Source: Chitinophaga pinensis
Lineage (GTDB): Bacteria; Bacteroidota; Bacteroidia; Bacteroidales; GCA-2748055
Assembly: GCA_945863035.1 (NCBI GenBank)
Contig: CAMAZH010000016.1
Span: 1-44,570 of the forward strand
Direction: 5' to 3'
Length of the DNA stretch: 44,570 nucleotides
Shown one piece after another: positions 5,543 through 31,215 of the stretch. How positions within the stretch are numbered: the first letter of the stretch is position 1; each line of letters starts with the position of its first letter. The notes below the pieces were generated by a model. It saw only the letters and a program-made list of their open reading frames with translations. It was not told the origin of the DNA and did no database searches. The position numbers and the translations under genes were made by a program.

Positions 5543-6556
5543 ATGACAGAAGCTCTTTTCTATACCAAGCTTTCAGAAAACAGGACAAACTGTTTGCTTT
5601 GTCCTCATAATTGTATTGTGGAAGAAGGTAAACGAGGTGTATGCGGTGTACGGATTAACAGGGAGGGAATATTGTATTCAGAGGTGTATGGGAGACCGGT
5701 TTCTCTTAATTCAGATCCTGTCGAAAAAAAGCCTCTGTACCATTTTTATCCGGGACATCAGGTACTTTCCGTCGGAACCCTGGGTTGCAACCTCAAATGC
5801 AGCTTTTGCCAGAATTCCGGGATTTCCCAGTCAAGCGGAGAAGATCAGGGTTTTGTGGTTAAAAGGAGCCTTCAGGAAATCATCCTGCTTGCCCTTGAAA
5901 AGCAAAAAAACATCGGTCTGGCTTACACCTACAATGAGCCGGTAGTTTTTTACGAATACATGTCTGACCTGGCCACGGAGGTACACAGGCATGGCATGAA
6001 AAACATAATGGTATCCAACGGATTCATCAACCCGGAACCTCTTTCAAAACTTTTACCCTTAATCGACGCATTCAATATTGATCTGAAGTCATTTGAAGAC
6101 GATTTCTATAAAAAGCACACCAAATCACGGATCGAACCCGTTTTAGAAACCATCAGGACTGTGTCAGGAAGCGGGAAGCACCTTGAGCTGACATTTCTGG
6201 TAATCCCGGGAATCAACGATTCCCTTGATGTATTTGATAAGATGACCGACTGGATTCTTGAAGTAACGGGCAGAAAAACGCCCTTGCATATTTCGAGGTA
6301 TTTCCCTCATTACAAAATAAACCTTCCCCCGACTCCAATAAAGACACTTGAAGGATTTTACCATCATGCAAAGGAGAAGCTCGATTATGTTTACCTGGGA
6401 AATGTTCCCGAAAGTCTTGGGATGGACACCTACTGCCCCGTGTGTAAATCCTTATTATTAAAAAGGAATGGGTATTACACCCTGAAGGAAGGCCTTGACA
6501 GCAATGGAAGTTGCACCAAATGCCATGAAAAGGTAATTAACTTTATGACAATCTGA
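5543..6556 (+). CDS. amrS: AmmeMemoRadiSam system radical SAM enzyme (AmrS)
   Basis: A 337-residue radical SAM protein distantly related to pyruvate formate-lyase activating enzymes. The 4Fe-4S site is CxxxCxxC at Cys82, Cys86 and Cys89 inside a GTLGCNLKCSFCQN block. An N-terminal Cys cluster (17, 20, 24, 34) precedes it, and a CPVC...CTKC zinc-ribbon-like end follows at about 305-330. This arrangement is characteristic of the AmmeMemoRadiSam radical SAM family rather than of PflA. It is first in a three-gene operon; its stop is one base before the Memo gene. The substrate of the system is not established, so the reaction is unknown to me. Confidence 0.92.
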   Translation: MTEALFYTKLSENRTNCLLCPHNCIVEEGKRGVCGVRINREGILYSEVYGRPVSLNSDPVEKKPLYHFYPGHQVLSVGTLGCNLKCSFCQNSGISQSSGEDQGFVVKRSLQEIILLALEKQKNIGLAYTYNEPVVFYEYMSDLATEVHRHGMKNIMVSNGFINPEPLSKLLPLIDAFNIDLKSFEDDFYKKHTKSRIEPVLETIRTVSGSGKHLELTFLVIPGINDSLDVFDKMTDWILEVTGRKTPLHISRYFPHYKINLPPTPIKTLEGFYHHAKEKLDYVYLGNVPESLGMDTYCPVCKSLLLKRNGYYTLKEGLDSNGSCTKCHEKVINFMTI

Positions 6557-27747: not shown

Positions 27748-29085
27748 TTACAATTCAGGGTTTAAAACAGGGATTTCGGCCAATTTTGTTCTGGAGGGAC
27801 TTTCTTTAGATGAAAAGAGATCAATTTCGGGCCATTTTGCAGTGCGGTAAACCGATGCAAACATAGTGTAAGACATTTTATTGTGAAGTCTGTTGTGTTT
27901 ATATGCCGAGCTATTTAATAAAATAACCCAATTAATGCCATTTTCCTGACGCATCATCAAGGCTGTAGCACCTGAAAGTGTTCCGGTTCGCCACCAGGTT
28001 CCATGTTTATCCGCACCTCTCCATCCGAAAAGTCCTTTCCCCGCAAGCTCAGGGTTTGTCATCATTAAAATGGTCTCCCGTTTGAGGATATCTTCCTGAT
28101 TATCGAAACCATCGAGAACCGTTAATAATTTGGCGAGTTCGGGAGCTGAAGCCACCCATCCCCCAGCTGCACCAATGAGGTCGAGATCATTTCCCCCGTA
28201 AGATTTGGGAACCATTTTGCCTGAACCGTCAACACTCAAGCAATATGCCGAACCTGGGGGCTCAAAATACTTAACCTCATTTTGGAATTTTTCATGATAC
28301 AAATCACGGCCGATGTGCATATCATAAATACCTGCGGGACGAAGGATGTTAATAACCACAAAATCCTCATACTTCATTTTGCTTTTCCTCTCGATAACCT
28401 TTCCCAGGATAGCATAGCCGAAATTGGAATAGGAGTAACGACTACCCGGCAGATAGCTTAGTTTTTCGTTAAGCATGAATTCGATAATCATATCCAGATC
28501 TGCAGGGACATCCGACTTCATTTTTCGGGCAATATACAAAGAGCTGAACACAGGATCGCCATGTTTTCGGCTCCACCCAGCAGTATGATTGAGCAGATTA
28601 GCAATTGTAATTTGGTTTATCCTGGGATCTTTGAAATTGCTAAACCGTTGGTCGTTCAAAATGCCATTCGGTCCGAAAACGGTATCAGTAAGAGATAGTT
28701 GACCCAACTCGTAAAGCCGCATGATTGCAACTGCGGTAATGAGTTTAGAAATGCTGGCTATGCGAAAAAGGTGACCAGGCTGAACCTTCTCATCGGTTTC
28801 ATCATTTGCAACCCCAAATCCCTTGGCATATACAAGCTTTTCGTGCCTGGTGATGGCAACAGACGCTCCTGAAAGATTGTTTTTCTTGAGGAATGACTCA
28901 ATAAGTATATCAATACCCTGAGTTTCGGGATGGTCGGAATCTGCATTGTCGAGTTGCATCGCAAAGGGAATCCTCTCGTCAGGTTTGTAGAGCCCTTCTT
29001 CCTTTTTAACAGAAAAGCTAATTGCTGTTTCCAGAAAAAAAAAGAGCAACACACATATGGCTATTAACCAAATTTTAAAGGGCAT
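27748..29085 (-). CDS. Exported serine hydrolase, beta-lactamase/PBP4* family
   Basis: A 445-residue protein with an N-terminal membrane segment (about 4-25), so exported and possibly anchored. The class C beta-lactamase-like active site is complete: SISK at 111-114 (nucleophile Ser111, Lys114), YSN at 219-221, and RTGTLSG near residue 370 in the position of the KTG box. This family includes esterases, D-aminopeptidases and peptidoglycan carboxypeptidases; true beta-lactamase activity is unlikely to be its main role. A promoter is seen just upstream. Confidence 0.87.
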   Translation of the reverse strand: MPFKIWLIAICVLLFFFLETAISFSVKKEEGLYKPDERIPFAMQLDNADSDHPETQGIDILIESFLKKNNLSGASVAITRHEKLVYAKGFGVANDETDEKVQPGHLFRIASISKLITAVAIMRLYELGQLSLTDTVFGPNGILNDQRFSNFKDPRINQITIANLLNHTAGWSRKHGDPVFSSLYIARKMKSDVPADLDMIIEFMLNEKLSYLPGSRYSYSNFGYAILGKVIERKSKMKYEDFVVINILRPAGIYDMHIGRDLYHEKFQNEVKYFEPPGSAYCLSVDGSGKMVPKSYGGNDLDLIGAAGGWVASAPELAKLLTVLDGFDNQEDILKRETILMMTNPELAGKGLFGWRGADKHGTWWRTGTLSGATALMMRQENGINWVILLNSSAYKHNRLHNKMSYTMFASVYRTAKWPEIDLFSSKESPSRTKLAEIPVLNPEL

Positions 29086-29120
29086 TCTTAAAAAAAATTA
29101 AATGAATGGGATTAACACGA

Positions 29121-29151
29121 CAAAATTAAATGAATTATTCCTGGATAGAAA
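29121..29151 (-). promoter_or_regulatory. Promoter of the serine hydrolase gene
   Basis: Minus strand TTTC (29151-29148), 19 bases, TAATTTTG (29128-29121). The -7 box is exact and the -33 box has one mismatch. It is 35 bases before the start codon. Confidence 0.65.
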
Positions 29152-29396
29152 ATCATTGATTTCAACAAAAAACGGGTTTATTAACAATCCTTCACGAAAC
29201 ATCTATTAACAGTGTGATTCAGAGAACTTATCACGAATGCGAATGTGTTGGTAAATAGACTGAAATGCGCTTATTCGCATCCGTTTGAGAGCGTTCATGG
29301 GGCAATTTTGGAGAGCTTATGTAAAAAAACAGAAGTTTGATCAAATGGGAAGAAAAGCGGCTTTGCGTTTTTCACAACCCAAGGGGTACAAAAGCA

Positions 29397-29432
29397 AAAT
29401 GGGAACTTAATCGTGAGATTAAGCTCCCATTT
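29397..29432 (-). terminator. Hairpin ending the cryptic minus-strand transcript
   Basis: A 16-bp inverted repeat with one mismatch and a 4-base loop (29397-29412 with 29417-29432). On the minus strand it is followed by a T-rich tract containing TTTTGCTTTTG. The preceding hairpin at 29433-29464 abuts it directly. Confidence 0.7.
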
Positions 29433-29464
29433 CATTGTTTAGATACCGTAGCATCTAGACAATG
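29433..29464 (-). other. Second abutting hairpin
   Basis: Arms 29433-29446 and 29451-29464 pair over 14 positions with two mismatches, one of which can be a G-U wobble in RNA. The loop is 4 bases. It touches the terminator hairpin with no gap, so both could form at the end of one RNA. Confidence 0.65.
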
Positions 29465-29492
29465 CCAAGCTACTGTTATTATGGCCAGTTCG

Positions 29493-29696
29493 TCATTCCC
29501 GGTCGTTCCATACCGGTTCAGAGAGGAACCCTGACGAGTTCATTTTTCGGGTTTCCCCGATTCTGAACTGCCCCCGTTGAACCATCAGGCAGATTCGGGT
29601 CTTACGATCCTCCTCTGGCTGCTGTGAAAAATTCCGGATGCCGGTTAAGGCTTCTTTCCTGTTTTCTGCCCTTCGGGCCAACCACTCAATGAACAT
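29493..29696 (-). CDS. Candidate small protein of 67 residues, or 3' part of a frameshifted gene
   Basis: Starts MFIEWLARRAENRKEAL and is rich in Arg, Glu and Asn, with no signal peptide. Its ATG overlaps the last 11 bases of the 20-residue frame upstream. The same frame remains open for about ten codons before the ATG, so it may instead be the downstream part of one longer gene broken by a single-base shift. I do not recognise the family. Confidence 0.35.
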   Translation of the reverse strand: MFIEWLARRAENRKEALTGIRNFSQQPEEDRKTRICLMVQRGQFRIGETRKMNSSGFLSEPVWNDRE

Positions 29697-29748
29697 CTTT
29701 CGATAATTCCCGGCGTTGGTTGAGCACTACTCGAAGTATCTTGCTCAT
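29686..29748 (-). CDS. Candidate 20-residue leader frame with a strong Shine-Dalgarno
   Basis: The minus strand has AAGGAG five bases before an ATG at 29748. The frame encodes MSKILRVVLNQRRELSKDVH and stops. A strong Shine-Dalgarno is uncommon in this phylum, which makes the start noteworthy. It overlaps the 67-residue frame and could couple translation, or be the 5' piece of a frameshifted gene of about 85 residues. Confidence 0.4.
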   Translation of the reverse strand: MSKILRVVLNQRRELSKDVH

Positions 29749-29774
29749 TTTAACTCCTTAAACGTTGAAGTTTC

Positions 29775-29818
29775 GCCTCGCGGCTCTATCTTCCGGGTAG
29801 CTTCCACTAAGCCGAGGC
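29775..29818 (-). other. Hairpin in the leader of the cryptic transcript
   Basis: GCCTCG (29775-29780) pairs with CGAGGC (29813-29818), and after a 2-base bulge GCT (29783-29785) pairs with AGC (29810-29812). It lies between the promoter at 29876 and the small-frame start at 29748. Confidence 0.5.
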
Positions 29819-29875
29819 TTTGCTTTATCTGATCCCCGTTTTTCAGAGCGACCTTTTATCGCTTACTTGGTCTTA

Positions 29876-29906
29876 CAAATATATTCCGGAAACCATAAAA
29901 AGTCAA
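29876..29906 (-). promoter_or_regulatory. Promoter of the cryptic minus-strand transcript
   Basis: Minus strand TTGA (29906-29903), 19 bases, TATATTTG (29883-29876). The -7 box is exact. A start site near 29869 would give a leader of about 120 bases before the small frame. Confidence 0.6.
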
Positions 29907-30205
29907 GCAAAACGCATCAAAACTCTGAACAAATTTTCGACATAGGTTATCAACAATATGTTGAAAACGGTGATCATTAACAACTACAGTTGTTTCAGGA
30001 TTTTTGAGTGAGCAATTACTGGAGTTATTAACATCCGGCTTAACGCAAAAGAAAATAAATTATTAAAGATGGCCTGGATAAACTCTGCTTTATTTTCTGA
30101 GAACGGGCTGTTTTAATTCTCTAGTGGAGGGATCCTTCTTGAACGTGCATACTGCTGGGGTAGAACCCTCCTTCGCACTGCGGACTACGGAGAGTGAAAA
30201 AGTAA

Positions 30206-30306
30206 GGTCCAGACGATAAAAATTGCATCTTCACAGATGCTTGCCTGAAAAAGAACCTAATAACCAAAAATAACTAAACCTAAAACTACGATTTATTGTC
30301 TGGACC
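30206..30306. repeat. 101-bp element with 15-bp inverted termini
   Basis: GGTCCAGACGATAAA (30206-30220) and its inverse at 30292-30306 match at 14 of 15 positions. An internal hairpin GCATCT-N4-AGATGC lies near 30225-30240. No target-site duplication is obvious at the edges. It could be a small non-autonomous element or a structured RNA. Confidence 0.6.
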
Positions 30307-30489
30307 TCATATCTTAAACAAGTAAGTTTAGGAATTGTTTGATTCGGATAAAAAAGAGTTGTCTTTATTGCGAAATCAGGACGTTTTTACAAGTAATGGG
30401 GGCTCCCGCAATCTGCAATTGAATAAATATCAATAATATACGATTAAAGTAAACTATTTTTCAAAATAAGGTCTAAATAAAAACCCGAC

Positions 30490-31215
30490 TTAGAAAAGTT
30501 TGGGGTTCTGAGTATATTCCACCTTTTCTATTAAGGATTTATCGAAGGGGTCAGGTCTCTTTTCTGATAATTTCCGTGAAACGGTGTAGGCCTCCATCGA
30601 GTTTTCGGGGTACGGCTTTAACAACTCATTGACTCTTTCTTTTGAGGCGGAGGGGTCGATCCATTCCTCTTCCCGACCGCAGGGAAGGATTACAGGCATT
30701 CTTTTCTTCAGGTTATGGATTTTCTCCATCAGGGGATTTGCAGCTGTGGTGAGAATTGAAAAGGTCCGCACAATCTCACCGGTTTCGGGGTTGTTCCAAC
30801 TATCGAATATCCCGGCGAAGGCAAAGATTTCATTGTCTTTTAGACGGATATAGTAAGGGATTTTTATTTCCGGGCTTGTGTGGTACTCGAAAAATCCATG
30901 TGCAGAAACCAGACATCGGCCGTGCTGGGCAGCCTTCCTGAATGCGGGCTTATTCCAAACCGTTTCCGACCGGGCGTTAAATGCAGAGTAGCTGTTTTTT
31001 TCGGCGGCAACTTCGCTACGGGTCCAGTGCGGTATTAATCCCCAACGAAACAATTGCACCTCGCCCCTGTTCTCGCCTGTTATTACCGGCATATAGGGCT
31101 TATTGAATGCCGATTGAAAGAACGAAGGTGTATATCTCGGATCCTCGGGGAATTTAACGTTAAACCGCTTTTCGAGTTCCTTACGCTGAATGTTGTGTTC
31201 CACGAAATAGCACAT
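30490..31215 (-). CDS. SOS response-associated peptidase (SRAP/YedK family)
   Basis: Forms a covalent bond with abasic sites in single-stranded DNA to protect them. The 241-residue protein has the required Cys2 (MCYF), Asn80 and Glu84 in NARSE, Glu110 in HGFFEY and His167 in the IHNLKKRMP block. Their spacing parallels the Cys2, Asn75, Glu105 and His160 of E. coli YedK. It is transcribed away from the LON-domain gene. Its position beside a LexA-like repressor and two damage-tolerance polymerases supports a repair role. Confidence 0.94.
   Translation of the reverse strand: MCYFVEHNIQRKELEKRFNVKFPEDPRYTPSFFQSAFNKPYMPVITGENRGEVQLFRWGLIPHWTRSEVAAEKNSYSAFNARSETVWNKPAFRKAAQHGRCLVSAHGFFEYHTSPEIKIPYYIRLKDNEIFAFAGIFDSWNNPETGEIVRTFSILTTAANPLMEKIHNLKKRMPVILPCGREEEWIDPSASKERVNELLKPYPENSMEAYTVSRKLSEKRPDPFDKSLIEKVEYTQNPKLF

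Follow-up and report, generated by a model that had tools for sequence, protein, structure and literature searches.

Only a few large structured bacterial RNAs with an unknown job are on record. Sponge RNAs of the CsrB/RsmZ kind are intergenic, carry repeated hairpins and end in a terminator. Bacterial Y RNAs combine a constant basal stem with a non-canonical loop and a variable remainder. OLE, ROOL and GOLLD are characterized as large RNAs with elaborate secondary structure and poorly understood function (PMC12286853). ModT, the raiA motif RNA, occurs in Bacillota and Actinomycetota (PMC11706538).

The window (the whole 44,570-nt stretch of DNA that was analysed) carries on its minus strand, at 29871–29391, what is almost certainly the gene of a structured non-coding RNA. 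As read from the sequence, the gene appears to stand alone, with its own promoter and intrinsic terminator. It is located between an SRAP gene (30490–31215) and a beta-lactamase-like gene (27748–29085), in a region (29086–30489) that the earlier note had called gene-free and that has no ORF of at least 80 aa. The features of the locus are as follows.

29904–29906, minus strand: -33 element TTG (sequence; kept in relatives)
29876–29883, minus strand: -7 box TATATTTG (sequence; kept in relatives)
29391–29871, minus strand: non-coding RNA gene, inferred transcript of about 480 nt with both ends inferred (comparison with relatives)
29865–29870, minus strand: closing helix P1, 5' strand CCAAGU (pairs with 29465–29470; covaries in 73 members)
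29854–29864, minus strand: core internal loop, 5' strand AAGCGAUAAAA, family form GAGNGAUAAAA (column conservation)
29849–29853, minus strand: helix P2, 5' strand GGUCG (pair counts, 73 members)
29488–29848, minus strand: variable central domain with multiple hairpins (shuffle-tested fold; covarying class alignments)
29493–29748, minus strand: 20-residue frame (29748–29686) and 67-residue frame (29696–29493), incidental and not conserved
29483–29487, minus strand: helix P2, 3' strand UGGCC (pair counts, 73 members)
29471–29482, minus strand: core internal loop, 3' strand AUAAUAACAGUA, family form ANAAUAACNGUA (column conservation)
29465–29470, minus strand: closing helix P1, 3' strand GCUUGG (covariation, 73 members)
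29433–29464, minus strand: 3' hairpin capped by C(UACG)G (compensatory changes, 36 sequences)
29391–29432, minus strand: intrinsic terminator, hairpin (29432–29398) and U-rich tail (sequence; present in relatives)

TAnnTTTG is presumably the -7 consensus of the Bacteroidetes primary-sigma type, to which TATATTTG was assigned. The exact -7 box reported earlier at 29876–29883 is borne out by the sequence, with the TTG (29906–29904) 20 nt upstream of the box (29883–29876) on the minus strand. In all 43 of 43 relatives found by motif, a -7 box with a TTG 18–22 nt upstream occupies one fixed place, the box starting 15–16 nt ahead of AAGT in the 5' motif (43 distinct members, loci L001–L058); at random control places in the same loci, the box alone was encountered 17 times in 1486. 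This count is based on the 43-member set, which was not filtered for the promoter, because the larger set of 73 members required TAnnTTT upstream. For the predicted transcript of 487 nt, the folding energy is -163.4 kcal/mol (z = -5.35), which 0 of 100 shuffles matched. The leader of about 120 nt is present on the minus strand, the two abutting 3' hairpins were found at 29464–29433 and 29432–29398, and the self-contained unit proposed in the earlier note recurs across two orders with a fold better than shuffles.

A DNA search of 61 relatives gave matches in 17 genomes. Apart from the full-length copy in a relative of the same genus (G001; 96% identical over 517 of 521 bases), the matches were limited to the ends of the query, approximately 27–65 and 417–521. 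Each end holds a motif of the family, ACCRAGTRAGMGATAAMAGG on the 5' side and CATAATAACNGTARCTYGGC on the 3' side, with the hairpin and the terminator coming after the latter. The 3' motif with at most one mismatch was found in 43 of the 393 genomes of the window's order, at least three of these matches being due to chance (L032, L045, L057). The 43-member set leaves out these three loci, which are not this RNA, and exact duplicates, as well as L006 and L013 (no 5' match) and L004 (more than two mismatches in the 3' motif). The 73-member set allowed at most two mismatches in the 3' motif and at most four in the 5' motif. Locus L027 is Bacteroidetes bacterium bin_92.

A covariance model of the 3' domain (R1; 36 sequences, 98 positions, 15 pairs) was used to establish the distribution; with strict filters it misses weak members. 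R1 matched 26 of the 28 genomes in the window's family, including 10 of 10 good ones (at least 90% complete, at most 5% contaminated), and in 89 of 393 genomes and 50 of 207 genera of the window's order. Within the same class, it was found in 32 of 291 genomes of the order of G608, which, judging by promoters and proteins, is perhaps Cytophagales. A phylum-wide sample gave 13 matches in 395 genomes at E 0.01, several of them not members. Judged in the same way, the window's own order would be Bacteroidales. The RNA is carried by many Bacteroidales and some related bacteria. Two loci are present in many genomes of the window's family, and tandem pairs occur in L118 (484 nt apart), L139, L145 and L168. 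The remainder of the gene-free region of the window (29980–30489) gave no match to R1.

At the edges of the family, a convincing 5' element is missing from 2 of 44 R1 matches (L142, L149). The weak matches outside the class (L065, L066, L069, L071; E 0.003–0.01) showed no acceptable 5' element and were taken as chance. G600 and G463 have R1 matches at E 2.5e-4 and 5.7e-4 with membership unproven, and no 5' element was found in G600 (L149). A weak antisense match in L131 (29 bits), opposite that locus's own RNA, was left out. In host family f180, the search at three mismatches or fewer gave no 5' element accompanied by a fitting 3' motif; a diverged one is visible by eye in L172 and L173. Genomes of this family of approximately 1.2–1.6 Mb (L171, L172, L173, L174, L179) retain one or two 3' domains of the RNA despite their reduced size. 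The window's RNA had no match in phage or plasmid collections, and five viral contigs from the 3'-motif scan, all at 19.1 bits or less with R1, were rejected as members.

The constant part of the RNA is formed by its two ends. Across the family, P1 is formed by the CCAAGU strand and RCUUGG, the latter lying upstream of the 3' hairpin. Positions 2–6 of this helix are paired in 73 of 73 members, found by a motif search that allowed the observed P1 variants and not every possible one, and the pairs are kept through the exchanges AAG/CUU, AGG/CCU and GAG/CUC. At position 7, 64 of 73 members have a pair; the outermost position (1-31) does not pair, being A/C in most members. Double-changed cells in P1 number 43, against a mean of 15.3 and a maximum of 23 in 1000 shuffles over the 73 members. 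P2 is weaker, with 79.2% of cells paired; it also has 43 double-changed cells (shuffle mean 18.6, maximum 35; 73 members). In the purine-rich 11/12-nt loop GAGNGAUAAAA/ANAAUAACNGUA, 15 of 23 positions carry the same base in 72 or all of the 73 members, a figure inflated inside the motifs since the members were picked by these motifs. The members from host family f128, found first through the 3' model, have the 5' strand with 0 mismatches. The 3' hairpin is usually capped by UACG, and its stem is kept through changes on both sides (36 sequences).

The centre is of a different character: its length varies from approximately 160 to 560 nt overall (216–555 nt between the ends in the 73 members), with short natural versions of 162–210 nt between the motifs in L168, L169, L176 (162 nt) and L178. 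Class-wise alignments were needed because aligning 16 mixed short members together led to a consensus of poor quality (-52 kcal/mol). In class A (alignment A2; nine sequences of the window's own family), 180 pairs are formed with 96.6% of cells paired, and in class B (A3; 10 sequences, including two genomes shown to have the window's gene order) 131 pairs with 96.2%, the class structures having been derived from the same alignments, which favours these two percentages. Double-changed pairs number 37 in class A (16.2 in shuffles, 0 of 500 reaching this number; 5–16 when slid) and 21 in class B (9.2 in shuffles, 0 of 500; 3–4 when slid). Further pair types in class B were not above shuffles, 133 of 500 reaching the same number. 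When the 3' hairpins were removed, the window's RNA folded at z = -2.78 against shuffles, and seven members without the 3' hairpins and terminator gave z between -1.6 and -5.3. The centre evolves fast and forms, inside each class, a deep multi-helix fold built from many short hairpins with tetraloops.

Among 32 representatives, three words are enriched 4 to 8 times over expectation, CGCAAG (27 seen, 4.2 expected), CUUCGG (23 and 2.8) and CGAAAG (37 and 9.5), which are closings of GNRA and UUCG tetraloops. At 5593–6025 of L146, one member contains four tandem modules of approximately 108 nt (CGGGCRYRAAGG ... UGAGACGGGNAACCGCAGAARUGC), recognisable also in L147 and L148.

The structured small RNA that the earlier note had listed among its options is strongly supported by covariation, fold z-score and recurrence across two orders. 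The check that it proposed, covariation on homologous regions, shows that P1, P2, the 3' hairpin and the centres of the classes keep their pairs through double changes. Its reading had caught the structure and missed both the pairing of the 5' end with the 3' region and the wide occurrence.

The gene neighbourhood changes between host families. Three genes on each side are common to the window, L114, L116 and L129; over 40 loci from 23 host families, no neighbour gene occurs in more than five families (rel 5, dnaG 5, floA 3, SRAP 3). A link of the RNA to ppGpp or primase through rel and dnaG was considered, and their recurrence could reflect one. Since no neighbour exceeds 5 of 23 families, preference is given to ancestral gene order, the recurring neighbours being kept positions of a vertically inherited gene. 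In five host families (L124, L126, L127, L142, L144), a RelA/SpoT gene shares the strand of the RNA at a distance of less than 0.7 kb, 45–107 nt downstream of it in three of these, and dnaG is found near the RNA in five other families. In the window, the segment 30490–38328 beside the RNA is a DNA-damage cassette with genes for an SRAP peptidase, an HTH + S24 (LexA-like) regulator, an ImuB-type Y-family polymerase and DNA polymerase III alpha.

The other options of the earlier note, a tiny coupled operon or a small gene with one frameshift at 29493–29748, have next to no probability left. Both frames exist where they were placed, the 20-residue frame preceded by a Shine-Dalgarno-like AAGGAG and overlapped by the 67-residue one. 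However, a 1-nt indel disrupts the latter in G001, which is of the same genus, so both frames are regarded as incidental; no frame is common to the 73 relatives keeping both RNA ends, whose longest ATG ORF has a median of 32 codons, and Pfam gave nothing above the cut-off for the frames. Search of the genome contigs with a 77-codon frame also speaks against a gene with a frameshift: the two matches were the same-genus contig, which is the sole real relative, and a weak one in L028 (Hydrogenedentota), where R1 has no match, and this frame was rejected as a protein gene. There is little more room for a cis-acting leader or attenuator of the beta-lactamase-like serine hydrolase gene 306 nt downstream, a very improbable reading. 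That gene is on the same strand, and the gene order is kept in the four loci named above, but an intrinsic terminator separates it from the RNA, and in other families the neighbours differ and are often in the opposite orientation.

Known RNA families do not account for the locus either. The window has no tRNA or tmRNA and 0 matches in Rfam 15 at gathering score; 20 relative loci gave five matches at relaxed thresholds, all below gathering, and nine had none inside the RNA at E up to 10. The sole match inside an RNA was Chlorobi-1 in L030 (20.3 bits, gathering 50), so the earlier statement that no usual annotated family explains the unit holds in Rfam for the window and these 20 loci. The size of the RNA and its near-universal presence in the family would suit a divergent housekeeping RNA (6S, tmRNA, RNase P RNA or Y RNA), which is nevertheless hardly probable. 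tmRNA is encoded separately (all 11 of 11 relatives have a match, eight of them above the cut-off; in the own genome at G000:C177, E 4e-62), as is RNase P RNA (9 of 11; G000:C3, E 1e-64), and the absence of Ro60/TROVE protein from the family (0 of 28 genomes) argues against a Y RNA. The architecture also differs, we take it, from that of 6S RNA; the 6S model (RF00013) matched 0 of 11 relatives and likewise missed the Bacteroides ihuae control. B. thetaiotaomicron has a 6S RNA of its own (PMC7366714), so the blank for 6S carries no information.

Two trans-acting alternatives deserve somewhat more weight. Titration of an RNA-binding protein by repeated hairpins, of the CsrB/RsmZ kind, is unlikely, though it would fit a stand-alone, terminator-ended RNA with modular repeats and variable length, present in two copies in many genomes and enriched in CCGGAA (33 seen, 7.4 expected; 32 representatives). 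Against it, CsrA occurs in just 1 of 28 genomes of the family and is absent from the own genome, the top enriched words are tetraloop closures and not a shared single-stranded site, and what hardly varies is one internal loop and not the repeats. The lone CsrA gene (L182, G016:C230:8547-8702) may sit on a stray or foreign contig. CsrA and TROVE are not general partners of the RNA in this family. Regulation of mRNAs by base-pairing through exposed seed stretches is a still poorer candidate: the RNA is stand-alone and intergenic, and trans sRNAs are described for Bacteroides (PMC7366714), but the positions constant over two orders lie in helices or in the long-range internal loop, and the centre changes fast. 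The authors of the ModT work take wide conservation as an argument against simple base-pairing (PMC11706538).

The reading that we consider the likelier one is a large structured RNA that acts in trans, of a kind with OLE, ROOL and raiA, and that probably forms a scaffold with the constant core as its dock; for the scaffold role by itself, the chances are even or slightly better. A dedicated protein or a second RNA would dock at the constant base (P1, loop and P2), and the centre would be a modular arm of the scaffold, able to become shorter or longer or to be duplicated. The RNA could thus act as an RNP scaffold or an RNA-only particle, like OLE, ROOL and raiA/ModT, and presumably neither by base-pairing to mRNAs nor as the leader of a neighbouring gene. 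Tentatively, and with rather less assurance, it could be placed in a new class of ancient RNP or RNA-only particle, in which the GAGNGAUAAAA/ANAAUAACNGUA loop, clamped by two helices, would be the core, as a protein dock or active site, and the tetraloop modules would be exchangeable and free to vary in number.

Nearly every genome of the window's family has the RNA, two orders contain it, and a core so constant must do something specific. That many Bacteroidales and some relatives carry it with a promoter and terminator of its own suggests an old cellular RNA machine or scaffold. Its scattered occurrence in the order (89 of 393 genomes, a count that misses weak members) speaks against a function that cells cannot do without. 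For pull-down, probing and cryo-EM, compact targets are offered by the conserved core and by the short natural forms (L168, L169, L176, L178), and with so wide an occurrence it is realistic to look for a culturable host.

The RNA is comparable with CsrB/RsmZ in its intergenic position, repeated hairpins and terminator, unlike which it belongs to a family with CsrA in 1 of 28 genomes. With bacterial Y RNAs it shares a constant basal stem, a non-canonical loop and a variable remainder, in a family with TROVE in 0 of 28 genomes. A literature search, mostly outside subscription journals, gave no description of it, including in the available text of PMC8632094, PMC7366714, PMC12286853 and PMC11706538, and it is apparently undescribed. 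As is the case for raiA/ModT, it is widely conserved and structured, with an unsettled mechanism, but unlike ModT it has no Rfam match, and the members found all belong to a single class of its phylum. It differs from OLE, ROOL and GOLLD in having no Rfam family match at gathering and a centre of such variable length, and ROOL and GOLLD lie in phages or prophages, where this RNA has no counterpart among the phage and plasmid collections searched. Several marks of a large ornate RNA were found, namely a promoter and a terminator of its own, an extensive fold that covaries and the lack of a conserved ORF, and it resembles OLE, ROOL and GOLLD in being large, stand-alone and elaborate in secondary structure (PMC12286853).
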